Assembly: GCA_036557285.1 (NCBI GenBank)
Contig: DATBHW010000041.1
Span: 1 to 64,000 of the forward strand
Direction of reading: 5' to 3'
Source of the DNA: Ktedonobacterales bacterium
GTDB taxonomy: Bacteria; Chloroflexota; Ktedonobacteria; Ktedonobacterales; DATBGS01
Length of the DNA stretch: 64,000 bases
Shown in pieces: positions 1,602 to 26,780 of this stretch. Every line of letters begins with the position of its first letter. The first letter of the stretch is position 1. Below the pieces are notes generated by a model. The model was given only the letters and a program-made list of their open reading frames with translations. It was not told the origin of the DNA and searched no databases. A program made the position numbers and the translations under genes.

Positions 1602-1696
1602 CTTAAATCAGCAGCCGCGCCACATAGAAGGGCGAAAGCACCCTGGACGGCGGCAGAAAATCGCCGGTCACGCCCATCATCGTGTCGGCCAGGTGT
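1602..1696 (-). pseudogene. 95-bp copy of the 3' end of the geranylgeranyl-reductase-like gene
   Basis: These 95 bases match 5259-5353 with a single mismatch, in the same orientation. The copy includes the stop codon and would encode the last 31 residues of that flavoprotein (ending YVARLLI). Beyond 1696 the match is interrupted by four extra bases (GTGT), continues for about 12 bases, then stops. It sits just downstream of the HTH/solute-binding gene. It is either a remnant of a second reductase copy or a short duplication or gene-conversion tract. No start or body of a gene remains. Confidence 0.85.
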
Positions 1697-1731
1697 GTGT
1701 TTGCAGCGGGCCATCTGGCTCGCCGCCTCGC

Positions 1732-3762
1732 CTAACACGTCCCCTGGTCGCACCACCACTCGGCGATGGTGACGGTTGGTCCTTCAAATGGAGTAGGCTG
1801 AAAGCCGTGCGCTCCCTTGCGCACGACAAACACGGCGGAAAAGCCAAAGAGGACAATGAACCGGAGTTCGCTCAGGTAGATCTCGTGCAGTTGATGAAAG
1901 ATCTGCTGCCGCGCCCCTGGGTCTGCCGTCGCCAGCTCCTGTTGATAGAGGGCATCAATGGCCGGATTGCAATAAAAGGTAAAATTCTCCCCCTTGGGCG
2001 GAATCTGATCGCAGGCCAATATGGGGTTATCTGGATCTGGGCCATAGCCATCGGCAAACTCGCCGATGTCGAACCGGCCCGCGATGGCGCCGCTGGGTGG
2101 CGAGGCTTCCCCCGCAGACATGATGGTGCCAAAGAACGTCCCAGGGTCATAATTCTCAATATCAAGCTGGATGCCAATCTCCCTGAGATTGCGTTGGATG
2201 ATCGCCTGGCTATCGGGGCGAAAAGTGACCAGGGAGACGGCGGTCGAGTACTCGAATTCCAGGCGCTGCCCGTCTTTGGCCCGCACTCCATCTGGTCCGG
2301 GGAGCCAGCCGTTGTCCTCCAGCAGTTTCCTGGCCGCCTCTGGATTAAACTGCGGACAGTCCGCCCCTGGTTCATAGCCCGGATGGGTTGCCGACGGATG
2401 GTCGGTACACAACGTGTGAGCGAAGCCATGCATTGCCTGCTGAATCAGCGCCTGGTGATCAATCGCCATGGCCATCGCCTGGCGCACTTCAAGGTGGCTA
2501 CTGAGCACGACATTGTGGAAGTTGAAGTATATCGCCTCGTAAGTGTTATCAGTGGGAGCGGCGACCAGCGTATAGCTGGTCAGGCGCTGGTAGTCCGGAA
2601 TCTGAGGTACATCCACCCAGGTCGCGGTGATGGCACCCGCTTGCAGGCCCCGCAGGCTGGTGGCTGCATCGGCGATGCGGAAGATCACCCGGTCCAGGTA
2701 GGGTAGTCCTTCGCGGGCGCGGTAGTAGCGCGGGTTGCGCACCAGCGTGTAGTGATCGCTTGGCTTGCTCTCCGCCAGCCTGAAGGGGCCGCTCACGACT
2801 TGCGGGGGCGAATTGAAGATGTCCTTGGGGGCCATCTGGCTGAAATAGTGCGCGGGCAGGGGAGCTATCGTACCCCAGACCCACAACGCGAGGAACGGCA
2901 CATACGCGTGCTGGAGGTGGAAGGTGATCGAGAGATAGTCTGCCGAGACCTGCGCCGAGGTGATCACGCTCCATATTGGTATGTCGGCTAAGGTGTGGCC
3001 GAACGCCGGGTTCTGCCAGAGCCGCCAGGAGAAATCAACATCGCGGGCATCGTAGGGCTGGCCGTCTGACCACACCAGGCCAGGCCGCAGGCGGAACGTC
3101 CAGATGGTCGCATCGGCGCTGATGCCCCCATTCTGTAGCGTGGGTACCTCGCGCGCCGCCGCAGGATGCAGCACGCCCTGCGCGTCGCTAGAGAAGAGCG
3201 GCAGGTATAAGGCGCTATCCAGCTCAGGACCATCGTTGCTGTTTCCAGTGGGAATGAGCGACGGTTCATGCAGCAGGGTCTCAATCCAGGTGCCGCCCCG
3301 CACCACGCTGGGCAGAGGCTGGCGGAAGACACCGAGCAGGCTGGCCCCGCCCAGGAGACCGCCCGCGATGACCAGCACCGCCAGTCCGATGAGCAGTCCG
3401 GCGGTGCGGCGAGTAACACGCCTCCGCTGGCGTTTCTTTGGGGGCGCGGGGAGAAGTGGCGCGTCAGCAGGCGCCCGCGTGGCCGCTGCGGATGACTCCA
3501 CGAAGCCACCCACTGGCGCAGGGAGCGGTGTCGCTCCGTCCGGGCGGCTGCGCAGCAACCCGAGTTCCTCGGCGCTCTGGTCTAGAACCGCGCATAAACG
3601 CTTCCGATAGTAGGGGCCGGGAACGGCGATCCCGCGCTCCCAGCGGCTCACCATCTCGAAGCTGCTGCCGATCTGCTCGGCCAACTCAGCCTGGGACCAG
3701 CCTTTGAGGTCGCGCGCGTGGCGCAGGCGTTCATTCGGAACGAACTTCTCAGCGTGCTTCAT
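1732..3762 (-). CDS. XRE-type HTH / transmembrane helix / extracellular peptide-binding protein fusion
   Basis: 676 residues. Residues 8-70 form an XRE-family helix-turn-helix (SQAELAEQIG, then SFEMVSRWERG). Residues 71-115 are a Pro/Ala linker ending in a KKRQRRR cluster. Residues 121-146 are one hydrophobic helix. From about 155 to the end is a family 5 oligopeptide/dipeptide-type solute-binding domain. The topology predicts a cytoplasmic DNA-binding head and an external peptide-binding body. That suggests a one-component membrane regulator sensing a peptide, or a binding protein that has gained an HTH anchor. No permease or ATPase gene for peptide uptake is adjacent. The start has a good ribosome site (AAGGAGGGGG) and a strong promoter upstream (3846-3874). 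Confidence 0.9.
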   Translation of the reverse strand: MKHAEKFVPNERLRHARDLKGWSQAELAEQIGSSFEMVSRWERGIAVPGPYYRKRLCAVLDQSAEELGLLRSRPDGATPLPAPVGGFVESSAAATRAPADAPLLPAPPKKRQRRRVTRRTAGLLIGLAVLVIAGGLLGGASLLGVFRQPLPSVVRGGTWIETLLHEPSLIPTGNSNDGPELDSALYLPLFSSDAQGVLHPAAAREVPTLQNGGISADATIWTFRLRPGLVWSDGQPYDARDVDFSWRLWQNPAFGHTLADIPIWSVITSAQVSADYLSITFHLQHAYVPFLALWVWGTIAPLPAHYFSQMAPKDIFNSPPQVVSGPFRLAESKPSDHYTLVRNPRYYRAREGLPYLDRVIFRIADAATSLRGLQAGAITATWVDVPQIPDYQRLTSYTLVAAPTDNTYEAIYFNFHNVVLSSHLEVRQAMAMAIDHQALIQQAMHGFAHTLCTDHPSATHPGYEPGADCPQFNPEAARKLLEDNGWLPGPDGVRAKDGQRLEFEYSTAVSLVTFRPDSQAIIQRNLREIGIQLDIENYDPGTFFGTIMSAGEASPPSGAIAGRFDIGEFADGYGPDPDNPILACDQIPPKGENFTFYCNPAIDALYQQELATADPGARQQIFHQLHEIYLSELRFIVLFGFSAVFVVRKGAHGFQPTPFEGPTVTIAEWWCDQGTC

Positions 3763-4712: not shown

Positions 4713-5225
4713 TCAGAACTGGTAGCGGGTTTGGCTCCACTGGTCGCCCCTGGCGTAGGCGAAGATCTTGGTGAGCGTGACCGAGAACACCAGAAGCGTT
4801 TCCCCACTGTTTTTATCATAGAAGACCCCATCGCGCAGCAAGATGGGCCAGCCCTCGCCCCACTGGATGGCCCACGTCTGGTAGAGGCGTTCGCTCACGG
4901 CCACGTCGGTGAGTGGGACGACATCCCCTTCGACCACGATGTCGAGTCCGGGTTCCAGGTGGTTGCAGCCAGTCGTCAGCACCACATGCGGGTTCCCCCG
5001 CAGGTTCTTCAGCTTCTGGGCGATGCTCCCTGTTGAGACGTAAAGGGTTCCATCGACCCAGGCGGGTTTGACGGGCGTGACGTGCGGTCGTCCATCGGCG
5101 CGTACTGTCGCCAGCCAATATATCTCAGCGGTTTCCAGCACGCGACGGGTCTCCTCCCAGGGCGTCGGCACGGCGTCTGGTGAACTACTGTGTCCCAGGT
5201 CAATGGTCGTGATGGGGTTCTGCAT
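4713..5225 (-). CDS. Pyridoxamine 5'-phosphate oxidase-like flavin/F420-binding protein
   Basis: 170 residues with the split-barrel fold of the PNPOx/FDOR superfamily. Signs are the N-terminal strand pattern IYWLATVRADGRPHVTPVKPAW, where the R..G.P...P is typical, followed by LYVSTGSIAQKLKNLRGNPHVVLTTG. The family binds FMN or F420 and reduces or oxidises small substrates, or degrades tetrapyrroles; the exact substrate cannot be read from the sequence. The ribosome site AGGAGGACTGAGC precedes ATG. It is the last minus-strand gene of the ketosynthase locus and may be co-transcribed with the flavoprotein 34 bases upstream. Confidence 0.85.
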   Translation of the reverse strand: MQNPITTIDLGHSSSPDAVPTPWEETRRVLETAEIYWLATVRADGRPHVTPVKPAWVDGTLYVSTGSIAQKLKNLRGNPHVVLTTGCNHLEPGLDIVVEGDVVPLTDVAVSERLYQTWAIQWGEGWPILLRDGVFYDKNSGETLLVFSVTLTKIFAYARGDQWSQTRYQF

Positions 5226-5259
5226 GCTCAGTCCTCCTAAAGGCTATTCAAATACTTTC

Positions 5260-6627
5260 TTAAATCAGCAGCCGCGCCACATAGAAGGGCGAAAGCACCC
5301 TGGACGGCGGCAAAAAATCGCCGGTCACGCCCATCATCGTGTCGGCCAGGTGTTTGCGGCGGGCAAACCGCTCCATGACATGCTCGCACAGCCAGGGGCG
5401 AGCGATCAACTCCTGAACGATGTGTTCAACGAGGCGCTTGCCCGCAAACTCGCGCCGATGCAGCCGATCATAGGCGCGCAGGCGCTCCGCCGAGCAATCG
5501 CCAGCCGCCAGCGCCGCGCCCGCGACTCCGGCCAGCAGTTCAGCGCCGCGCAGCGCGCGATACATGCCTTCGCCGGTGAAGGGATCGTAAAAGCCCGTCG
5601 CATCGCCAACCAGCATCACTCCATCAGTAGAGAGACGCTGGGCGCTGACGGCCAATCGGCTCACCGTCAGAATACCCTTTGTGCGCCGCGCCTCATCCAG
5701 CCTGGAGGCGAGCGCCGGGAACCCCTGGAGCGCCTCATCGAAGAAAGCGTCAACATGCCCGGCCAGGCGCGGCGCTTCGCTTTCATCAACCACAATCGCC
5801 ACGTTGCAGAGGTCGCCAACTGCTGGCGGCTCCAGCGGGGCCAGGCCCACATAGCACCCGCGCCCAACGTGCATTTCGCCGTACAGCCCCAGATCACGAA
5901 TGCCGCGCATGTGTGTGACCAGCGCGATCTTGCGCTGGCGCGCGGAAGATTGCTGCACGCCCAGCCGCCGGGCAATCAGCGAATGCACACCGTCGGCGGC
6001 CACCAGCAGCCGCGCCCGCAGGGTCGTGGCTGCCGTCGCTTTGCTCTCGACGCCAGCGGCAGGGCTAGTCGAAGGACCATCCGATGCTTTACAGGAAGCG
6101 TTCGCTGATGTTTCACGTGAAACACTGGCGAGCGGTTCACGTGAACCACTCGCGGGCTGCGTCTTTTGCACAGCGAGACTGACGCTGATCTCCCTGGGGC
6201 TGACACGCTTTATCTGAAAGTCCTGAAGGCGCGTCCCTTCAAGCGCCTCAACGCCCTGGCTTCGCGCCCGCTCAATCAGCAGGTGATCGAAAATAGAGCG
6301 CGGCAAGGCCAGCCCATATTCATAATAGGGCTTACCGTCAGGTCTGGTGACGCCCGCGAAGTCGGCTCGGAACGCGCGGCCCGCCGGGGAGTAGATGTCG
6401 AAGCCGCGCAGATGAGCCGGTTGCCTAGCCTGCACCTGCTCCAGCACACCCAGGCGCTTGAGAACGCCTTCAATCGCCGGACTCATGTACTCGGCGCAGG
6501 CTTTGTCGCGCGGAAAGATCGCTTTATCAATCAGCCCGACATGATAGCCCTGCCGCGCCAGCATGATGGCGGCGGCTGAACCTGCTGGCCCCGCGCCAAC
6601 AATGGCAACATCGAAATCAAGCGTCAT
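5260..6627 (-). CDS. Geranylgeranyl-reductase-family FAD-dependent oxidoreductase
   Basis: 455 residues from ATG at 6627 (ribosome site ATAGGAG). An upstream GTG at 6678 in frame overlaps the previous stop but would add repeat-derived residues. The Rossmann motif VAIVGAGPAGSAAAIMLARQG is at residues 6-26, followed by DKACAEYMSP, a family signature. VLVADG- and MLVGDATGFYDPFTGEGM-like segments bind FAD. Relatives saturate isoprenoid chains or oxidise or halogenate aromatic natural products. A low-complexity insertion of roughly 45 residues (about 150-195) contains two CACGTG palindromes, one a perfect parS (6109-6124). Its 3' 95 bases are duplicated at 1602-1696. It lies directly downstream of the two ketosynthases and probably acts in the same pathway. 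Confidence 0.9.
   Translation of the reverse strand: MTLDFDVAIVGAGPAGSAAAIMLARQGYHVGLIDKAIFPRDKACAEYMSPAIEGVLKRLGVLEQVQARQPAHLRGFDIYSPAGRAFRADFAGVTRPDGKPYYEYGLALPRSIFDHLLIERARSQGVEALEGTRLQDFQIKRVSPREISVSLAVQKTQPASGSREPLASVSRETSANASCKASDGPSTSPAAGVESKATAATTLRARLLVAADGVHSLIARRLGVQQSSARQRKIALVTHMRGIRDLGLYGEMHVGRGCYVGLAPLEPPAVGDLCNVAIVVDESEAPRLAGHVDAFFDEALQGFPALASRLDEARRTKGILTVSRLAVSAQRLSTDGVMLVGDATGFYDPFTGEGMYRALRGAELLAGVAGAALAAGDCSAERLRAYDRLHRREFAGKRLVEHIVQELIARPWLCEHVMERFARRKHLADTMMGVTGDFLPPSRVLSPFYVARLLI
6109..6124. promoter_or_regulatory. Perfect parS site (ParB-binding centromere) inside a coding region
   Basis: TGTTTCACGTGAAACA is identical to the canonical 16-bp bacterial chromosomal parS palindrome. 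It is read in the host gene as V-S-R-E-T. ParB binds such sites to organise chromosome segregation. Confidence 0.85.
6133..6148. promoter_or_regulatory. Degenerate second parS-like palindrome
   Basis: CGGTTCACGTGAACCA keeps the central TTCACGTGAA of parS but differs at three outer positions. Its centre is 24 bases from that of the perfect site. It may be a weak ParB site or a decayed duplicate. Confidence 0.45.
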
Positions 6628-6674
6628 GCGCGCTCCTATCCCACTTGCAGCGCCGCCTGGAAGGCCGCTGCAAA

Positions 6675-7916
6675 TCACACCCTTCTGAGGGCTACCGCCA
6701 TATTCGCGCCGCCGACGCCGCGCCCACCAAGCAGAACCACCGGCTGAGCGAACGGGCGCGCTTCGTCGCGCACCAGATCGAGGCCATAGGCGGGGTCCAA
6801 CTCCTCACAATTGATCGTTGGTGGGATAAGGCCATGCTCAAGCGCCAGCAAGGCTGTAATCGCATCCAGCGCGCCCGCCGCCGCGTAGCTGTGGCCGATC
6901 ATCGTGCGCGGCACACTGACAGGAAGACCGTCAAGAGCCGCGCCAAAGGCCAGCCGAAGTGCTTCCGCTTCCCCCTGATCGGACAGGGGAACGGCTCGCC
7001 CGTCCAGGCTCACATAGCCGATCTCGTTGGGAGCGATGTCTCCCTCTTGCATAGCCTGGCGCATGGCCCGCGCATACTGCGCGCCGTTCGCTGAAGGCGA
7101 GACCAGCCCATGCGCGTCATTGGTTTGCCCATAGCCAACAATTTCCCCATAGATCGGCGCTCCGCGCTGCCGCGCATGCTCATATTCCTCCAGGATGCAC
7201 ATGCCAGCCCCCTCTGCCAATACCAGACCAGCCGCGCGGCGGTCAAAGGGGCGGTAGGCGTGCGGATCGGCTTTCGTCACACAATAGCCCTTACGAGCCA
7301 GCGCCAGAAAAATGAACGGGTGGAGCAAGGCTTCGCATCCGCCGGTAATAAGCACATCCGCCGCGCCGCGCCGAATGGCGCTGGCAGCCATGCCCAGCGC
7401 ATCCAGGCCGCCAACCGTATCGTTCACCGGCGTTTTACAGTAGCCCTGAATGCCGTAGCGAATGGACGCCTGGCCCACGTTCGCCACCTGAAGCCAGGCA
7501 ATCGCCGTATACGCGCTCATCGCGCGCGGTCCGCGCGTGTAGGCAGCGGTAATCTCCCTGAAAACAAACTCTGCGCCCCCCCATGTGCAGGCAATGACCG
7601 CCCCGACCCGATGGGGGGATTCTTGTTCCAGCGCCAGCCGGGCATCAGTCAGCGCCTCTTGCATGGCGGCGAGAGCAAGATGGGTCACGCGATCAGTGCG
7701 CTTTGCCAACCTCCGGTCAATCACCGCTTCAACGACAAAATTGTCAACCTCTCCAGCTACCTGAATCGGAAGATCAGCGACCGGAAAACGCCGAATAGGC
7801 TTGATGCCAGAAGCGCCCCTCTGCGTCGCCTGCCAGAACGCCTCTTTTCCCAGGCCATTAGGAGCGATTACTCCCAGGCCGGTGATGACGACCCGCCGCG
7901 TTGACTGATGTGTCAT
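6675..7916 (-). CDS. Ketosynthase-like protein lacking the catalytic Cys (chain-length-factor-like)
   Basis: 413 residues with the full thiolase-fold layout of FabF/KS proteins (VVITGLGVIAPNG at the start, GGRGVGGANMA at the end). The nucleophile Cys is replaced by Thr167 in VNDTVGGLDALG, and the first active-site His by Asp305 in YVSLDGRAVP; His342 in MIGHSYAAAGA is kept. In type II polyketide systems the KS-beta or chain length factor has similarly lost Cys and pairs with an active KS-alpha. The intact ketosynthase is encoded 34 bases upstream, so a KS-alpha/KS-beta heterodimer is the natural inference. Ribosome site AAAGGAACA precedes ATG. Confidence 0.88.
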   Translation of the reverse strand: MTHQSTRRVVITGLGVIAPNGLGKEAFWQATQRGASGIKPIRRFPVADLPIQVAGEVDNFVVEAVIDRRLAKRTDRVTHLALAAMQEALTDARLALEQESPHRVGAVIACTWGGAEFVFREITAAYTRGPRAMSAYTAIAWLQVANVGQASIRYGIQGYCKTPVNDTVGGLDALGMAASAIRRGAADVLITGGCEALLHPFIFLALARKGYCVTKADPHAYRPFDRRAAGLVLAEGAGMCILEEYEHARQRGAPIYGEIVGYGQTNDAHGLVSPSANGAQYARAMRQAMQEGDIAPNEIGYVSLDGRAVPLSDQGEAEALRLAFGAALDGLPVSVPRTMIGHSYAAAGALDAITALLALEHGLIPPTINCEELDPAYGLDLVRDEARPFAQPVVLLGGRGVGGANMAVALRRV

Positions 7917-7950
7917 GCCTGTGTTCCTTTGGGGAGAGAATGCAAGTCAG

Positions 7951-9255
7951 CTAGTGGACTCCAGCAAGGCGCCGATCACCCCACTCCGGCGCGGCAAGGA
8001 GGAGCGCCGTATTCACCCCGCCAAAGCCGCTGGAGTGCGTAAGCGCGACCTGAATAGTGCTGGGGCGCGCGGTATTGGGGATATAATCGAGGTCGCAGGC
8101 CGGGTCCGGCTGTTCCTGGTTGATCGTTGGCGGCAGGATATGTTCGTGCAGCGCCAGCGCCGTGACAATGGTTTCAATGGCGCTGGCCGCCCCTTGCGTA
8201 TGGCCGATCATTGATTTGGTAGAACTAATTGGGATACGATATGCCTGCTCGCCGAAAACAGCCTTATAGGCGGCAGTCTCCGCGCTCTCGTTGGCAACAG
8301 TCGAACTCCCATGTGAATTGATATAGCCAAGCTGCTCAGGGGTGATGGCCGCTTCATCGAGAATCTGCCTCAACAGGGTCTGAAGCGGCATGCCATCTTC
8401 AGGCAAGGCGGTCATATGATAGGCGTTGCTGTTCGAGGCGAAGGTAATCAGCTCAGCATAGATACGCGCGCCACGCGCCAGCGCCAGTTCTCGTTCTTCC
8501 AGCAGCAGCACTCCAGCGCCCTCGGCCATCACGAACCCATCGCGGCCCCCGTCATAGGGGCGCGAGGCTCGCTCAGGGTCGTCGTTGCGTGTACTCATCG
8601 CCCCGATGATGCTAAACCCGTTGAAGCTCCCATAGCACAGGCCAGAATCGCTGCCACCTGCCAGCATACGGTCGGCGCGTCCCTCCTGAATCGTCCAGAA
8701 CGCCTGCCCAATGGCATCTGCGCCCGCAGAACAACCGGTCGAAAGCACCGTACACGGTCCGTACAGTTGATGATGGGCAGCAATGGCGGCAGCGGGCGCG
8801 TGGGTCAGGATCAAGGTGCGCGACATGAAGACCTCGCACACCTCATGCAGCGGCTGCGTGCCGTTATCGCTGAGCTGTCTCCAGACCCTTTCCGTCTCTT
8901 CGTTGCAAGCCATCGCCGTACCCATATACACACCCATCCGAGCGCGCTCGTCCTCAGGTAAGGAGGTGGTGAGGCCCGCATCGCATAACGCGAGATTGGC
9001 AGCGGCAATCGAAAACTGGGTATTGCGATCCAGGGAGCAACACTCTTCGGCGGTCAGGCCGAGTGGTTCAGGATCGAAGTCTTGCGCCTCGCCAGCGATC
9101 CGAACAGGCAATGCGCTGGCGTCGAACCGGGTGATCGGACCAATACCTGAGCGACCAGCAACGCAGGCTTCCCAGAAGGCAGTTTTCCCAATACCATTGG
9201 GGGCGACAACACCAAGACCGGTGATAACGACTCGTCGAACGGGGGCGGCTGTCAT
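7951..9255 (-). CDS. Beta-ketoacyl synthase (KS-alpha, FabF-like) with intact catalytic triad
   Basis: 434 residues. The nucleophile is Cys175 in VLSTGCSAGADAIG, with His315 in YINSHGSSTV and His352 in KSMIGHTQGAAS; Lys347 is also kept. The FabF/KS-alpha ends VVITGLGVVAPNG and GFGGVNTALLL are present. The enzyme should carry out decarboxylative Claisen condensation of acyl- and malonyl-thioesters. First gene of a minus-strand operon with the Cys-less partner and the flavoprotein. No acyl carrier protein or malonyltransferase gene is nearby, so those would have to be supplied elsewhere. The start follows GGGAGGAATATAG, and a divergent intergenic region separates it from the prenyltransferase gene. 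Confidence 0.92.
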   Translation of the reverse strand: MTAAPVRRVVITGLGVVAPNGIGKTAFWEACVAGRSGIGPITRFDASALPVRIAGEAQDFDPEPLGLTAEECCSLDRNTQFSIAAANLALCDAGLTTSLPEDERARMGVYMGTAMACNEETERVWRQLSDNGTQPLHEVCEVFMSRTLILTHAPAAAIAAHHQLYGPCTVLSTGCSAGADAIGQAFWTIQEGRADRMLAGGSDSGLCYGSFNGFSIIGAMSTRNDDPERASRPYDGGRDGFVMAEGAGVLLLEERELALARGARIYAELITFASNSNAYHMTALPEDGMPLQTLLRQILDEAAITPEQLGYINSHGSSTVANESAETAAYKAVFGEQAYRIPISSTKSMIGHTQGAASAIETIVTALALHEHILPPTINQEQPDPACDLDYIPNTARPSTIQVALTHSSGFGGVNTALLLAAPEWGDRRLAGVH

Positions 9256-9563
9256 CTATATTCCTCCCAAAAACCCTTCCAAAATACTTTTTTCCTCGCT
9301 CGCTACACTTTTTTTTGATTCCCACAAGGACGACACGAGGCGCAGCAAGAATGCCCGCCTTCGTCCATGCCCGTCGAATCTATCTTCTGCTTGGTTGCAG
9401 CTATTCTAGCACACACGTGGTTCCCATGCACATCCATTAGTATAGAATACAATACACTGGCTAGATACAGATCACCTCCAGGCTGGGCGTTCTCAGAAAA
9501 AGGGAGCATAGCCGCACTTCCAACGCTCCATAACCGGGTGGTAATTGACAGGAGGACACTGGA
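9256..9563. promoter_or_regulatory. Divergent intergenic region between ketosynthase and prenyltransferase operons
   Basis: 308 bases, clearly more AT-rich than the flanking genes (for example around 9435-9475). It must hold the promoters for both divergent operons. Several TATA-like hexamers are visible but none is paired with a convincing -35 at the right distance, so start sites are not assigned. Ribosome sites lie at both ends. Confidence 0.5.
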
Positions 9564-10433
9564 ATGGTCAAAAAACGCAGCTTTGGTCAGATCGCATCCG
9601 GCTTTTTTCTCCTCTCTCACCCAGGACCAGTTGCCCTTCACATCATCGCTGTTGCCGCGTTTGCAGTCTTCGCCCTATGGCCCCATCTGGTCTGGAATAT
9701 CATCCTTCTGGTGATTGCCGCGCACGCGGCCATGCAATTGTCCATTGCCATGCTCAATGACTACTGTGACCGTCGCTTAGACGCGCTCAGCAAACCAGGC
9801 AAGCCCATTGTGCGTGGATTGGTCACGCCCCGCGAGGCGCTCGTCGTAGGACTTTTCATGATCGCCCTCATGGTGGGACTCTTGCTGTTCCTCAACCCGC
9901 TGGCTTTGTTGATCTCGCTGGCTTACCTGGCGCTGGGGCAGGCATATAACCTCGGACTCAAATCAACCCCCTGGAGCGGAATTGTCCTGGCCCTGATGAT
10001 CTCCCTCATCCCTCTCTACGTCCTGGCGGGCGTCAACCGCATCCCCCCGGCAAGCTTCTGGTTAGTTCCGGCTGGTTTTCTGGTGGGTGTTGCGCTGAAT
10101 CTGGCAAACTCCCTCCCTGATGTGGAGAGCGACATAGCCGGAGGCGCAAAAACACTGGCAGTGGTGCTGGGGGTGAAAGGGTCATTCATGTGCTGCCCGT
10201 TGCTGATCCTGGCGGCTGTGGCGCTTATGGAGACTTTGACCGTATTGGGCATTGTTCCTGCCCAGCCCTGGATGATGATCGTTCTACTGGTCATCGCCCT
10301 GCTGGCTATAGGAACAATGATCCGCTTCTTCGGGCCGCAGAAGCCCATCCAGACGCGCCAAACCTACTTCTATCTGGTCGCGTCAACCTGTCTGCTCTTA
10401 GGAATAGGCTGGTTCATCGTCGTCGCAGTATAA
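9564..10433 (+). CDS. UbiA-family prenyltransferase
   Basis: 289 residues, about eight to nine hydrophobic helices. The first Asp-rich motif is LNDYCDRRLDAL (N/DxxD pattern that binds Mg-diphosphate) and the second is LPDVESDIAGGAKT. These enzymes attach isoprenyl chains to aromatic or other acceptors within the membrane (quinones, hemes, chlorophyll, archaeal lipids). It opens the plus-strand operon divergent from the ketosynthases, so the acceptor may be their product (inference). Start after CAGGAGGACACTGGA. Confidence 0.9.
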   Translation: MVKKRSFGQIASGFFLLSHPGPVALHIIAVAAFAVFALWPHLVWNIILLVIAAHAAMQLSIAMLNDYCDRRLDALSKPGKPIVRGLVTPREALVVGLFMIALMVGLLLFLNPLALLISLAYLALGQAYNLGLKSTPWSGIVLALMISLIPLYVLAGVNRIPPASFWLVPAGFLVGVALNLANSLPDVESDIAGGAKTLAVVLGVKGSFMCCPLLILAAVALMETLTVLGIVPAQPWMMIVLLVIALLAIGTMIRFFGPQKPIQTRQTYFYLVASTCLLLGIGWFIVVAV

Positions 10434-10484
10434 TCAAAGCGATTTTCAACGAAACACTTTACGAAAGAAGAAAGAAGGCGGAGC

Positions 10485-11456
10485 ATGGGGAACTGGGCCT
10501 ATACGAAAGGCTTGCACGACCTGGGCAATTCGGTTTATGCCTATCTGCAACCAGATGGCTCCTGGGGCTGGAGCAACGCCGGACTTGTCACCGATGGCGA
10601 GGCTTCGCTGCTGATTGACACCCTCTACGACCTGAAGCTCACGCAAGCGATGCTGGACACCATGCGCCAGGCGGTCCCGGCGGCGGCCTCGCTTGACATG
10701 GTGGTGAACACCCATGCCAACGGCGATCATTGCTATGGCAATCAACTGGTCGGCAGCGCGCAGATTATCGCCTCAGCGCGCGCCGCGAAAGAGATGCTCG
10801 ATGTCCCCCCCGAGCAGTTTGCCATGCTGCTGAAGATGGCCCCGCAGCTTGGGCAGCTTGGCGAGTTCCTCACCCACAGCTTTGGCGCGTTCGATTTCGA
10901 GGGCATCACCCTGACACCGCCGACCACCACCTTTGAGGGCAGCCTGAACCTGAAGGTCGGCGACAAAGAAGTGCGCCTGATGGAAGTCGGCCCGGCCCAC
11001 ACGCGCGGCGACACGATGGCCTACATCCCCACTGACCGGACGATCTTCACCGGCGACATTTTATTTATCGGCGGGCATCCGATCATGTGGGCCGGACCCA
11101 TCAGCAACTGGATCAACGCCTGCGACCTGATCCTTTCGCTGGACGTGGAAACCATCGTGCCTGGTCACGGACCGATCACCGATAAACAGGGAGTCACTGA
11201 AGTAAAGGGCTATCTCGAATACGTCTTTGGCGAAGCACGCGCGCGCTATGAAGCGGGGATGCCTGCCTTCGAGGCCGCCAGAGCTATTTCCCTGGATCGG
11301 TATGCGTCCTGGTCGGATGGCGAGCGCATCGCTGTCACCGTTGCTTCGATCTACCGCGAACTCAGCGGCGACCAGACGCCCCCGGATATGCCAATGTTGT
11401 TAGGGCAAATGGCGGCGCTGGCGCTGGGAAGAGGCGCGGGCGAGCCTGATCGATAA
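10485..11456 (+). CDS. Metallo-beta-lactamase-fold hydrolase/cyclase
   Basis: 323 residues. Metal-ligand motifs: NTHANGDHCYG at 75-85 (HxHxDH with the second His replaced by Asn79), then PAHTRGD, FTGDILF and VPGHGPIT. MBL-fold proteins act as hydrolases, glyoxalases, or thioesterases and cyclases that release aromatic polyketides; the neighbours favour a role on the polyketide product. About 50 bases separate it from the prenyltransferase, and the methyltransferase follows after 13 bases, so the three genes are probably one transcript. The Asn in the first motif may alter metal binding. Confidence 0.87.
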   Translation: MGNWAYTKGLHDLGNSVYAYLQPDGSWGWSNAGLVTDGEASLLIDTLYDLKLTQAMLDTMRQAVPAAASLDMVVNTHANGDHCYGNQLVGSAQIIASARAAKEMLDVPPEQFAMLLKMAPQLGQLGEFLTHSFGAFDFEGITLTPPTTTFEGSLNLKVGDKEVRLMEVGPAHTRGDTMAYIPTDRTIFTGDILFIGGHPIMWAGPISNWINACDLILSLDVETIVPGHGPITDKQGVTEVKGYLEYVFGEARARYEAGMPAFEAARAISLDRYASWSDGERIAVTVASIYRELSGDQTPPDMPMLLGQMAALALGRGAGEPDR

Positions 11457-11469
11457 GGGGATAAGCCGT

Positions 11470-12207
11470 ATGAACCTGCGCGAACGCGACAGCAGCGCCG
11501 AAGAACTGCTCGATGCCCCCGGAGTTGATGATCGGCTGCTGGAGCAGAGCCTGCGCGACCTCAGCCGTATCGGCTCCCTGCTCGGCTGGACACACCTGGC
11601 GGTACAAGATGTCGCCCATATTGTAGCGCAGCGCCAGTTGCGCGCCTTTTCGGTGCTGGACGTTGGGACCGGCGCGGCCAATGTCCCTATCGCGCTCGCG
11701 CGCTGGGCGCGCCGCCAGGGGCGAGAGGCGCAGATTACCGCCAGCGATCTCAGCGAGCAGGTGCTGGCAGTGGCGCGCGCCAACTGCGCCAGCTTTCCCG
11801 AAATACACATAGAGCAGCAAAACGCCCTGGCGCTTACCTATGCCGATCAGTCGTTCGATCTGGTTCTGTGCCAGGGGGCGCTGCACCATTTTTCTCCCGA
11901 CGAGGCCGTCGCAGTGCTGAGGGAACTGGCGCGTGTCGCCCGGCGCGCGATCATCGTGACCGATCTCCAGCGGAACCGCCCACTCTACGTGGGGGGCTGG
12001 CTGCTGATGCACACGCTGATACGCAATCGCGTTACCCGCCACGACGGCCTCGCCTCTATTCGGCGCGCCTATACCCCCGCCGAAGTGCGGGCGCTGGCCG
12101 AGCAAGCCGACCTGCGCTCTGCAACCATCCATACCGCGCTTCGTCTCCGTCAGGCGCTCATCTGGCAGCGCAGCCCGCTCAACTCAACGGATCACAAAGT
12201 TTGCTGA
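11470..12207 (+). CDS. Class I SAM-dependent methyltransferase
   Basis: 245 residues. Motif I VLDVGTGAANVPIALA is at about 62-77, followed by ITASDLSEQVLAVARANC (acidic ribose-binding residue) and FDLVLCQGALHHF, the usual motif IV with HHF. The N-terminus (DD.LLEQSLRDLSRIGSLLG) matches the methyltransferases found with reductase and polyketide genes in many bacteria. Ribosome site AAGGGGAT. Probably O- or C-methylates the pathway product. The last 24 bases overlap the convergent lipoprotein gene. Confidence 0.9.
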   Translation: MNLRERDSSAEELLDAPGVDDRLLEQSLRDLSRIGSLLGWTHLAVQDVAHIVAQRQLRAFSVLDVGTGAANVPIALARWARRQGREAQITASDLSEQVLAVARANCASFPEIHIEQQNALALTYADQSFDLVLCQGALHHFSPDEAVAVLRELARVARRAIIVTDLQRNRPLYVGGWLLMHTLIRNRVTRHDGLASIRRAYTPAEVRALAEQADLRSATIHTALRLRQALIWQRSPLNSTDHKVC

Positions 12208-15595: not shown

Positions 15596-17173
15596 ATGAC
15601 GAAGCATGATCGGCGGATTGTCACCATTGCGGTGATGCTGGGTACGGCGCTTTCGGCGCTGGATGTCACGGTGGTGAGCGCGGCGATGCCCACCATTGTT
15701 GGGCATCTAGGCGGGCTGAGCCTGTACTCCTGGGTCTTTTCGGGATACCTCCTGGCAAGCACCATCACCATCCCCATCTATGGCAAGCTCGCCGACCTCT
15801 ACGGGCGCAAGCGCATCTTCACCATCTCAGCGATCCTCTTTCTCATCGGCTCAGGGCTGTGTGGCGCAGCCACGAGCATGCCGCAGTTGATTCTCTATCG
15901 CGTTGTGCAGGGATTAGGCGCGGGCGGCGTGCAGCCGATGACCTTCACCATCGTTGGCGACATTTACAGCGTCGAAGAGCGCGGCAAGGTGCAGGGGTTG
16001 TTCAGCGGCGTCTGGGGCATCAGCAGCGTGATCGGCCCGCTCGTTGGCGGCCTCATCACTCAGTATATCTCCTGGCGCGGCATCTTCTACATGAACCTGC
16101 CCTTTGGCCTGCTCTCCATCGTCCTGCTCTGGGTCTACCTTCACGAGCAGTTGGAGGTTCGTCGCCCGCGTATTGATTACCTGGGCGCGGCCTCGCTGGC
16201 TGTTGGCGTCACGGCTTTGCTGCTGGGGATTCTGGAGGGCGGCGTAGATTTCCCCTGGGATTCCGCGCCCATCCTGGGGCTGCTGGCGCTGGCGGCGGTC
16301 TGCCTGGCATTCTTTGTCTGGCAAGAGTTTCGCTCCCCGGAGCCGGTTCTGCCGCCCCGGCTCTTTAAGCAGCGCATCATCGCGGTTTCAACGCTGGGCG
16401 CGCTGCTGCTAGGTACGCTGATCGTCGTCCTGCCCTCGTATCTGCCGCTCTATGTGCAGGGCGTGGAGGGCGGCACAGCCCTGATCGCGGGGATTGCTCT
16501 CGCGCCGCTTTCGATCTTCTGGCCGGCGGGCAGCTATCTCTGCGGCGTCCTCGTCTTGCGCGTGGGCTATCGTGTCAGCGGCCTGGTTGGCGTCGCGCTT
16601 TCCAGCACAGGGCTGGCGCTGATCGTGCCGCTGGGCTGGCTGAGCCTGAACCGGCCCGCTGCCGCCGCGCTGATTCTCGTTGGCATGGGGCTGACCGGCT
16701 TTGGCCTGGGCATCATCTCCCTGACGTATCTCATCGCGGTACAAAATACCGTCCCCTGGAACGAACGCGGCGTTGCCACCGCTTCCAACCAGTTCTCGCG
16801 CACCATTGGCGGGGCCATCGGTGTTTCGGTGATGGGCGCTGTGTTGAACATGCAGTTGATGGCAAGGCTGGCCGCCGCTGGCATTCACCTGGGGACCATC
16901 CCCGATCCGACACAGCCGGGCCAATTCCTGACGCTCAACGCGCTGCTGCGCCCGGAGACGCGCGCCGCGCTGCCCGCTCATCTGCTCGGCCAGCTTGTTA
17001 GCCCGCTGGGCGCGTCGCTGCATATCCTCTTTCTCATGATGTTTGCGCTGGCCGGACTGGGCGTCATTTCCGCCTGGCTTTTGCCCAGCGGCGCGGTCAG
17101 CAGCAGCCCTGACAGCGCATCTGAGCAAGCAGTACTGCCGGGCAAAGCGGCGGGGGCCATGTCGGCGGATTGA
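15596..17173 (+). CDS. MFS transporter, DHA2 family (14-helix EmrB/QacA type)
   Basis: 525 residues with about 14 hydrophobic helices. Marks: LDVTVVSAAMPTIVGHLGG at residues 22-40 (DHA2 motif), GKLADLYGRKRIF (motif A), and YRVVQGLGAGGVQPM (motif C region). Members export drugs, dyes and metabolites by proton antiport. Thirty-three bases separate it from the preceding exporter, and they are likely co-transcribed. Start follows GGAGAGGAACGAGCG. Confidence 0.92.
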   Translation: MTKHDRRIVTIAVMLGTALSALDVTVVSAAMPTIVGHLGGLSLYSWVFSGYLLASTITIPIYGKLADLYGRKRIFTISAILFLIGSGLCGAATSMPQLILYRVVQGLGAGGVQPMTFTIVGDIYSVEERGKVQGLFSGVWGISSVIGPLVGGLITQYISWRGIFYMNLPFGLLSIVLLWVYLHEQLEVRRPRIDYLGAASLAVGVTALLLGILEGGVDFPWDSAPILGLLALAAVCLAFFVWQEFRSPEPVLPPRLFKQRIIAVSTLGALLLGTLIVVLPSYLPLYVQGVEGGTALIAGIALAPLSIFWPAGSYLCGVLVLRVGYRVSGLVGVALSSTGLALIVPLGWLSLNRPAAAALILVGMGLTGFGLGIISLTYLIAVQNTVPWNERGVATASNQFSRTIGGAIGVSVMGAVLNMQLMARLAAAGIHLGTIPDPTQPGQFLTLNALLRPETRAALPAHLLGQLVSPLGASLHILFLMMFALAGLGVISAWLLPSGAVSSSPDSASEQAVLPGKAAGAMSAD

Positions 17174-23671: not shown

Positions 23672-23855
23672 GTCTGAACTTAGAAGTCTGCCTGTTTGGA
23701 CTGACAGAATGAAGCAGGCACTTGCCATGCTCTTGAACCTCAGATATAATCGCCTCAGAAGTTTGTCTCTTGCAGGTGGTTGATGAGGAGGCGGAGACGG
23801 TGGGAGGTATTATGAGTGATTGTCGTTGTGCCTCGCCAGGGAGGAGATGGTTGTT

Positions 23856-26780
23856 ATGTCGGCGCCGATGAATGGGACAGGCGCGATCAGGTTTATTGAT
23901 GGCCCGCTGGCCGGTCAGACCCTCGCGCTCAACAAGCCCCAACTCATGATTGGGCGCGAACCTGGCACTGATATTACGGTAAATAATCCGGCGGTATCGC
24001 GCCAGCACGCCAGGCTGGTCCAGGGACCGACAGGCTGGGTCATTGAAAAGATCAATCCGCAGAACACCGTCCAGGTCAATGGGCGGGACGTGGCACAGTC
24101 GCCGCTGCGTCACGGCGATACGGTGGCGATTGGCCCGATCACCTTCCAGTTTATGGAACATGCCAGCGTGGCCGCGGGCCACCAGCCGGGCGGCACAGTG
24201 GTGAGCGCGCCGCCCCAGCCGCCCTACCCGGCGGGAAGTATGCAAACCGTTGGAGCCGCTGCGCCCCCCTATCATCCAGGCAGTGGCCCCTCTGGCCCTT
24301 CTTATCAGGCGACGCCGAGCCACCCCAACGCGCCCGGCATTCCGCCGGGCATGCCCTCATTAGAGGTGATCATTCACGAAGGCCGCAACGAAGGCCGCAA
24401 TCGTTACCCGCTGAACAAGCCGGTGATCACGATTGGCCGCGACCCCAGCAACGATATTGTCATCCCCGCCGGGGTCGTTTCGCGCCAGCACGCCGAGATC
24501 ACCCAGCAGGGTAATATGTTCCAGATCATTGATAAAGGGAGCGTCAATGGCATCTACAGCCAGGGCCACCCGATCAAGCAGAAACAACTGGCGCATGGCG
24601 ATCTTTTCCGTATTGGCGACTTGAACGGCACGCTTGTCACGCTGGTGTTCGACTCCGGCAGCGGCGCGCCGCTCGATCAAGCGCCGCCACCGGCCATGCA
24701 GCAGTTCGCCCTGGCGGGCGCTCCGGCGGTTGTGACCATTGGCCGCGCGCCGGGCAACACCATCCTGCTCAATCACCCGCTGGTTTCGCAGCGCCACGCC
24801 GAGCTAGCCCGCGATCCGCGATCCGGCGTCTATGTTCTGACCGACAAAGGCAGCACCAACGGCACCTATGTCAACGGCAGGCGCATCAGCGGGCGCGTGC
24901 GTCTGGACCCCGGCAACGAAGTGCGCATTGGTCCCTTCCGCTTTGTCTTCACCGGCACAGAACTAACCCAGCACGACGAAAGCGGCAATATCCGCGTGGA
25001 CGCCTACGATGTCTTCAAGGTCGGCGATGTCAGCGGCCTCAAGAAGCTCTTTGGCAGCGGCAAGCCCAACGTCTTGCTCAACCATCTCTCCTTCAGCATT
25101 GCGCCGCGCAAATTCGTGGCGATGGTTGGCGGCTCTGGCGCGGGCAAATCAACGCTGATGGACGCGCTCAACGGTCTGCGCCCGGCGCAGCAAGGGCTGG
25201 TCCTCTATAACGGCAATGATTACTATCGCCATCTGGCGGCCTTCAGCACGTCGCTGGGCTACGTCCCCCAGGACGACATTATCCACCGCGATCTGACGGT
25301 GGAGCGCGCCCTGTACTACGCCGCCAAGATGCGCCTGCCCGATGACACCAACAACGCGCAGATTGAGCAGCGCATCAGCGAAGTGCTGGCCGACGTGGAG
25401 ATGACGCACCGGCGCAAACTGCTCATCAGCAAGCTTTCTGGCGGCCAGCGCAAGCGCGTCAGCATCGCCGTCGAATTGTTAGCGCGGCCCAGCGTCTTCT
25501 TTCTGGATGAGCCAACATCGGGCCTTGATCCGGGGCTGGACCGCAAGATGATGTTCCTGCTGCGGCGGCTGGCGGACCGGGGGCATACGATTGTGCTGGT
25601 GACGCACGCCACCAATAATATCAGCGCCTGCGATTACGTCTGCTTTCTGGCGCAGGGCGGGCGGCTGGCGTATTTCGGGCCGCCAGACGAAGCCAAGCGG
25701 TTCTTTGGCAAGACGGACTTTGCCGAAATCTACAGTGAACTGGAACCCAGCGACGACCACCCCAACGCCCCGGCGGAGTGGGAAGGGCGCTTCCGGGGTT
25801 CACAGGACTATCAGAAATACATTGTCCAGCCCTTGCAGCAATCGCAGGCCGCCACGCGCACCGCGCAGATGCAGCGCACAGCGTCACTGCCGCAGCCCAA
25901 ACGCGGCGACCCTGTGCGGCAGTTCCGCTTGCTGGCGGGGCGCTACACCGAACTGCTCAGGAACGACACCGCCAACATGGCGATTCTGCTCTTGCAGGCG
26001 CCGATCATTGCCGCGCTGCTGATCTTCCTGACCAAATCGAATATCTTCGCCAGCCATCTGGGCAATGATATTGACGCGCAGACGCCGCTTTTCATCATGG
26101 CCGCCGCTGCCGTCTGGTTCGGCACCATCAACGCGGCCCGCGAGATCGTCAAGGAAGCGCCCATCTATCGGCGCGAGCGCACCGTCAACCTGGGCCTCTT
26201 CCCCTACGTGATGTCCAAGGTCTGCGTGCTGGGCTTCCTCTGTCTGATTCAGAGCTTCCTGCTGCTCGCCATCGTCGGCCTCAAGAGCGGCTACCCGGAT
26301 GGGATCATCTTCCCTGCCTTCGTGGAACTGTATATCTCGCTCATCCTGACCGCGCTGGGCGGCCTGATGATGGGGCTGGCTGTTTCGGCCATCGCGCCCA
26401 ACACTGACCGCGCTATGAGCGTGGTGCCGCTCCTGCTGATTCCACAGATCATCTTTGCGGGCAGCACCTTCAAGCTCTCCGGGGCCACAGAGATCATTTC
26501 CTACTTCATTGTGACCCGCTGGGGATTGGAGGCGCTGGGCGACACGGTGCATCTGCACTCGCAGCTTTGTGTGAGTCCGAGAGGCCAGCAGGATGTCTCT
26601 TCTGGCGGAGGCTGTCCCGTTGGGTTTGCCAAAACCAACCCGACGCTGACCACGCCGGATAATTTCTATGGACACGACCTCTCTCATCTCCTGTTTGCCT
26701 GGCTCATGCTGATTCTGCTGACGGTCGCTTTCCTGGCCCTGACCATTTACTTCCAGAGGCGCAAGGACGTGCGGAAATAG
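23856..26780 (+). CDS. Triple-FHA / ABCG-type ABC transporter fusion
   Basis: 974 residues from ATG at 23856 (GGAGGAG nine bases upstream). Three FHA domains each show the IGR...SRQHAxL or SQRHAEL pattern: about 30-55, 190-215 and 293-317, with Pro/Gly linkers between. The ATPase has Walker A GGSGAGKST near 425, signature LSGGQRKRV near 526, Walker B FFLDEPTSGLD near 548 and the H-loop near 583. The ABC-2 membrane half starts near 700 with about six helices. Domain order is that of ABCG half-transporters. FHA domains read phosphothreonine, so transport is probably controlled by the Ser/Thr kinases encoded here. Paralog of the truncated gene at the left edge. Substrate unknown. Confidence 0.93.
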   Translation: MSAPMNGTGAIRFIDGPLAGQTLALNKPQLMIGREPGTDITVNNPAVSRQHARLVQGPTGWVIEKINPQNTVQVNGRDVAQSPLRHGDTVAIGPITFQFMEHASVAAGHQPGGTVVSAPPQPPYPAGSMQTVGAAAPPYHPGSGPSGPSYQATPSHPNAPGIPPGMPSLEVIIHEGRNEGRNRYPLNKPVITIGRDPSNDIVIPAGVVSRQHAEITQQGNMFQIIDKGSVNGIYSQGHPIKQKQLAHGDLFRIGDLNGTLVTLVFDSGSGAPLDQAPPPAMQQFALAGAPAVVTIGRAPGNTILLNHPLVSQRHAELARDPRSGVYVLTDKGSTNGTYVNGRRISGRVRLDPGNEVRIGPFRFVFTGTELTQHDESGNIRVDAYDVFKVGDVSGLKKLFGSGKPNVLLNHLSFSIAPRKFVAMVGGSGAGKSTLMDALNGLRPAQQGLVLYNGNDYYRHLAAFSTSLGYVPQDDIIHRDLTVERALYYAAKMRLPDDTNNAQIEQRISEVLADVEMTHRRKLLISKLSGGQRKRVSIAVELLARPSVFFLDEPTSGLDPGLDRKMMFLLRRLADRGHTIVLVTHATNNISACDYVCFLAQGGRLAYFGPPDEAKRFFGKTDFAEIYSELEPSDDHPNAPAEWEGRFRGSQDYQKYIVQPLQQSQAATRTAQMQRTASLPQPKRGDPVRQFRLLAGRYTELLRNDTANMAILLLQAPIIAALLIFLTKSNIFASHLGNDIDAQTPLFIMAAAAVWFGTINAAREIVKEAPIYRRERTVNLGLFPYVMSKVCVLGFLCLIQSFLLLAIVGLKSGYPDGIIFPAFVELYISLILTALGGLMMGLAVSAIAPNTDRAMSVVPLLLIPQIIFAGSTFKLSGATEIISYFIVTRWGLEALGDTVHLHSQLCVSPRGQQDVSSGGGCPVGFAKTNPTLTTPDNFYGHDLSHLLFAWLMLILLTVAFLALTIYFQRRKDVRK

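Follow-up and report, generated by a model that had tools for sequence, protein, structure and literature searches.

The locus studied here, in the genome of a soil bacterium of the Ktedonobacterales (Chloroflexota), is on comparative grounds a hybrid: its ketosynthase (KS) pair and UbiA-family prenyltransferase belong to one pathway while its methyltransferase (MT) and flavoprotein belong to another. We give about an even chance to the explanation that it is an agq/hid-like cluster for a prenylated phenolic lipid or quinone, in which a KS pair lacking its own acyl carrier protein (ACP) and working on the fatty-acid ACP has replaced a type III PKS. The more specific proposal, held tentatively and at somewhat below even chances, is a non-orthologous replacement: a type II KS heterodimer without its own ACP would have displaced the type III PKS and would now feed the same MT-flavoprotein pair. 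Part of this joint reading, and equally tentative, is that the parent lineage was the family-wide prenyl-polyketide pathway of Ktedonobacteraceae. The replacement and the ACP absence rest on comparative evidence; the substrate, the ring, the order of steps and the product we infer.

The window, that is the whole stretch of 64,000 nucleotides analysed, comes from a 5.1 Mb genome (G000), a draft in 82 contigs that is 96.9% complete and from which the gene for a type III PKS, or for an additional ACP, may have dropped out. The seven ORFs listed in a preliminary description of this DNA were all correct in coordinates and strand, and each has Pfam backing. Four lie on the minus strand: KSα (7951..9255), KSβ (6675..7916), the flavoprotein (5260..6678) and a PNPOx/F420-type protein (4713..5225). 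UbiA (9564..10433), an MBL-fold protein (10485..11456) and the MT (11470..12207) form a divergent run on the plus strand, separated from the KS-side genes by a 308-base intergenic region.

Both KS proteins carry the N- and C-terminal ketoacyl-synt Pfam domains. KSα retains the catalytic residues C175, H315 and H352 previously read from the sequence, together with K347, as expected of an active ketosynthase. In KSβ, a CLF-like inactive partner, the Cys and the first His are replaced by T167 and D305, again as described; the second His is retained and the Lys is changed to Arg. Among the 21-22 KSβ orthologues read, the Cys position holds T, A, S or L, the first His is D and the Lys is R in every case. 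Since the same replacements recur throughout, this pattern does not reflect chance decay. Maximum-likelihood analysis of 89 KS proteins resolves the KSα and the KSβ of this lineage as one clade each (both 100/100). The KSα clade joins the aromatic type II KSα (98/69) and the KSβ clade the CLFs (92/89); the genome's two housekeeping FabF proteins group apart, within a FabF clade. The tree and the catalytic residues rule out housekeeping FabF duplicates. A KS phylogeny, which the preliminary description had proposed as a check, thus places the pair as KSα/CLF-like and outside FabF, and conserved synteny with unrelated primary metabolism was not found either. Among solved structures in the PDB the nearest chains are FabF, closely followed by the actinorhodin KS (for KSα) and CLF (for KSβ).

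Orthologues of the pair are present in 22 related genomes (23 copies with that of the window), and within the named genome collection KSβ matches exceeding 50% come exclusively from Ktedonobacterales. In two genomes, G027 and Dictyobacter arantiisoli, KSα and KSβ form one uninterrupted ORF. These natural fusions (L080:8603-11254, 883 aa; L072:889-3504, 871 aa) are both followed by UbiA, a hydroxylase and two methyltransferases, and they argue for a heterodimer. AlphaFold predictions, based on 7 sequences for KSβ and on one sequence for the fused protein, reached a pLDDT of 32-33 for want of an alignment and were set aside.

A position beside type II KSα and CLF would also be expected if the locus were the relic of an ordinary aromatic type II PKS, making a longer poly-β-ketone and a polycyclic aromatic product on the fatty-acid ACP, with the MT and flavoprotein as general tailoring enzymes. 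A Streptomyces plasmid cluster with the order thioesterase-KS-CLF-ACP-MBL-NTF2-FAD-ARO, whose MBL protein is 31% identical to that of the window, points the same way, as does the SnoaL-like protein that adjoins the KS pair in many relatives. However, the window has no aromatase/cyclase or ketoreductase gene close to the pair, UbiA consistently accompanies the pair, and orthologues of the MT and flavoprotein are confined to genomes with a type III PKS (see below). We therefore regard such a relic as unlikely.

A minimal type II PKS consists by definition of a KS, a CLF and their own ACP. The preliminary description had reported no dedicated ACP, and a six-frame HMM search of the whole window was indeed empty. 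With an HMM built from five known ACPs, none was found at any of the 23 copies of the pair, 13 of them flanked on either side by some 8-10 kb of sequence. The same HMM did recognise an ACP at each of the eight other KSα/KSβ pairs read from Ktedonobacteraceae (L053, L101-L107; E 5e-12 to 4e-4), which represent at least two further KSα/KSβ lineages of the family, each with its own ACP. An improved HMM that included the ACPs of these control pairs, run with filters off, gave no match at E<10 in the 23 KS loci, and in further loci (UbiA operons and others) it gave only three chance-level scraps (E >= 2.8). A small ORF (c20, 77-79 aa) located upstream in three relatives was considered as the missing ACP and rejected: it is lysine-rich, charged and unrecognised by the ACP HMMs. 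These comparisons show ACP-lessness to be, at the level of sequence, a conserved property of this KS lineage. A search for a discrete ACP elsewhere in the genome had also been suggested; the sole discrete PF00550 protein is encoded within a fabD-fabG-acpP cluster and is the fatty-acid ACP.

That the pair uses this fatty-acid ACP, as first proposed, is supported by indirect evidence, a basic patch kept on KSβ. At the six basic residues through which E. coli FabF, the reference, contacts AcpP, the mean net charge of KSβ is +2.9, compared with +2.3 for the CLFs of systems that have an ACP and -0.3 for KSα. Three of the aligned positions (127, 128 and 206) fall in a variable region. In the FabF-AcpP complex most contacts are supplied by the monomer opposite the active site (PMC7138838), so the patch lies on the expected subunit. 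The patch would favour borrowing of the fatty-acid ACP over working without any ACP. The latter alternative, a carrier-independent heterodimer acting on CoA thioesters like type III PKSs and PqsBC, would account for the absence of an ACP as well as for the swap with a type III PKS. It agrees with the consistent lack of an ACP near the pair and with neighbouring genes that come from a CoA-using PKS pathway; the basic patch and the fact that the closest relatives are all ACP-dependent nevertheless make it very unlikely.

The window UbiA protein (Pfam UbiA, 1.2e-37) carries NDxxD and DxxxD motifs. Its orthologues (51-66% identity) occur in 22 of the 23 genomes with the KS pair and in none of the nine KS-less members of the order; the single KS genome without one is an 84% complete assembly. 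Fisher tests on such co-occurrence tables ignore kinship and overstate the evidence. Because most KS genomes belong to one family, whose KS-less panel members belong to one genus, the co-occurrence corresponds to few independent events. In most genomes UbiA is unlinked to the KS pair and is part of a conserved ECF sigma/anti-sigma/UbiA/O-methyltransferase operon in Ktedonobacteraceae (L134-L151), a context that suggests stress-controlled prenylation. In three genomes (Dictyobacter arantiisoli, G027 and G031) it follows the KS genes, accompanied by a UbiG-like methyltransferase and, where the contig extends far enough, by an MhpA-like hydroxylase. G033 and G016 are among the tree neighbours of both the window UbiA (97/90) and KSα (99/96), despite the two genes being unlinked in these genomes; KSβ groups with G033 and G025 (91/78). 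Co-occurrence, linkage and congruent trees together support the functional link between UbiA and the KS pair that had been assumed in the preliminary description. The window UbiA falls in the KS-associated clade, apart from the UbiA of type III PKS genomes. It was also considered as the menaquinone prenyltransferase of the cell. This was rejected, as it reaches no MenA cut-off and a separate UbiA at C60 passes that of TIGR00751. PF02621, of the futalosine menaquinone pathway, was not found; for the classical Men pathway the search covered MenA alone.

The flavoprotein and the MT have a different history. The gene previously called a reductase is real, but its product (FAD_binding_3, 2.5e-22) is a flavoprotein of the geranylgeranyl-reductase/UbiH type and not a ketoreductase; its start is probably the ATG at residue 18. 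Orthologues occur in six of the 32 genomes of our panel, namely the five that possess a type III PKS and the genome studied here. In those five the flavoprotein adjoins an orthologue of the window MT, and in G018 the MT, flavoprotein and type III PKS are all adjacent. The MT (Methyltransf_25, 3.6e-19; PRK06202-like) is sister to the MTs of type III PKS genomes (97/96). More distant MT relatives are found on plasmids, and the four opened (Sphingobium, Deinococcus, Psychrobacter and Paludisphaera) all lie in MT/FAD/type III PKS operons. Operons of this layout have been reported for hierridin (hidABC) and for the alkylresorcinols of planctomycetes (PMC10896814). A tblastn search for flavoprotein relatives on plasmids was empty, so that the tie of the flavoprotein to these plasmid operons rests on the MT and on 29% identity to one of the four flavoproteins. 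The same five type III PKS genomes are the only ones of the panel to carry a more distant UbiA (33-38%). Since they have their own, the KS and type III PKS pathways look parallel in composition.

The MT and flavoenzyme, first described simply as genes of the KS locus, thus correspond to the two tailoring enzymes found in type III PKS operons, a relationship that had been missed. This origin makes the locus a hybrid, its KS pair occupying the position in which one would expect a type III PKS. PF02797 is present in the five relatives and absent from this genome at E<=1e-6; by this sequence criterion the type III PKS is either gone or not assembled. Elsewhere in the Ktedonobacteraceae the partners of the KS pair are another hydroxylase and other methyltransferases, and the replacement therefore rests on one genome. 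The flavoprotein was also considered as the counterpart of the MhpA-like hydroxylase (c1) of the other KS loci; this was rejected, as the two are alike only in the nucleotide-binding part.

The use of other tailoring genes at other KS loci could also mean that the KS pair and UbiA make one product here as elsewhere in the family, the MT and flavoprotein being remnants left stranded when a type III PKS cluster was lost. The flavoprotein does lie in a rearranged region, its 3' end being duplicated. On the other hand both genes are intact and located on opposite sides of the KS and UbiA genes, the flavoprotein ORF directly downstream of KSβ and overlapping its ORF, the MT only 13 bases after the MBL gene. 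Moreover the hydroxylase and O-methyltransferase usual beside the pair elsewhere were not detected in this genome. Stranded remnants are for these reasons quite unlikely.

The closest known systems differ in the machine that builds the chain. The agq cluster of Actinoplanes missouriensis, reportedly described by Awakawa et al. in 2011, is said to make products of the prenylated alkyl-methoxyhydroquinone class. Like the window it reportedly combines a PKS, a methyltransferase, a flavin monooxygenase and a UbiA-like prenyltransferase, but its PKS, AgqA, is of type III, unlike the type II KSα/KSβ pair. PqsBC of Pseudomonas is a heterodimer of one active and one inactive condensing subunit with no dedicated ACP. 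It resembles the window pair in these features, but it is FabH-like rather than FabF-like and performs other chemistry. In hidABC-type operons (MT-oxidoreductase-type III PKS, for hierridin; PMC10896814) the MT and flavoprotein match those of the window by homology and context, but in the window genome no type III PKS was detected and UbiA and the KS pair are added. The actinorhodin KS-CLF (PDB 1tqy) shares with the pair an active KSα, a Cys-less KSβ, tandem genes and related sequences. The minimal PKS of Ktedonobacter racemifer (doi 10.1016/j.bmc.2020.115686) is reported to be another such minimal type II PKS. Compared with such minimal type II PKSs, the present lineage has no ACP detected near any copy, forms its own clade, is fused in two genomes, and its KSβ has Cys replaced by T, A, S or L and His by Asp.

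Under the replacement proposal, KSα and KSβ would form an obligate heterodimer in which KSα condenses and KSβ acts as an inactive, chain-length-setting partner docking the ACP. Malonyl units and probably a fatty-acyl starter would be taken from the ordinary fatty-acid ACP to build a short poly-β-keto chain, which would close to a resorcinol- or pyrone-type ring and perhaps be released by the MBL-fold hydrolase. The MT and flavoprotein, which elsewhere would tailor the alkylresorcinol of a type III PKS, would respectively methylate the ring and oxidise it (or reduce the prenyl chain). UbiA would prenylate the ring product, which the MFS protein may export.

A KS-CLF kept across a bacterial family without a nearby ACP would show that such a system can work with the fatty-acid ACP or with no ACP. 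The natural fusions would offer handy material for in vitro study of ACP compatibility, which is known to be a bottleneck. If a type III PKS has indeed been exchanged, tailoring enzymes recognise the ring irrespective of the enzyme that built it, which would aid product prediction from orphan clusters; the exchange is directly testable with the panel of 32 genomes.

The accessory genes are less uniformly associated with the pair. The HxNxDH motif noted in the MBL-fold protein (Lactamase_B, 3.7e-21) is present and is kept in all orthologues read. In G027, where contigs C272 and C7 can be joined through a 51-base overlap, a 73% identical orthologue neighbours the KS locus. A search for co-occurrence with the KS pair was negative, KS-less genomes also having MBL. 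On the strength of the G027 linkage and of the 31% relative adjoining a Streptomyces KS-CLF-ACP set, the protein may be a thioesterase/cyclase involved in product release. The proposed link to adjacent MFS exporters gains from the recurrence of MFS genes near the KS pair in relatives: the MFS gene at 15596..17173 (plus strand) has homologues at 46-48% within 10 kb of the pair in four of them, and it is a probable member of the cluster and putative exporter.

The PNPOx-like gene (PNPOx_N, 8.5e-14), initially included in the cluster, is probably a passenger. A 98-bp direct repeat (1602-1699 and 5259-5356, 98% identical) corresponds to the 3' end of the flavoprotein gene, the copy at 1602..1699 having no strand assigned. 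It bounds a 3.66-kb unit containing a solute-binding-protein gene and the PNPOx gene, whose membership is doubtful because of this location. To judge from the repeat, the unit is a recent duplication or insertion scar. The other gene, at 1732-3762 (minus strand), encodes a 676 aa protein in which a Cro/C1-type HTH is fused to a family 5 extracellular solute-binding domain. This pairing is unusual and the protein might be a cytoplasmic peptide sensor. Finally, two plus-strand ORFs (5-1393, at the contig start, and 23820-26780) encode paralogous FHA/ABC-ATPase/ABC-2 transporter proteins, and members of the family of the contig-start ORF adjoin KSα in G025 and G033.
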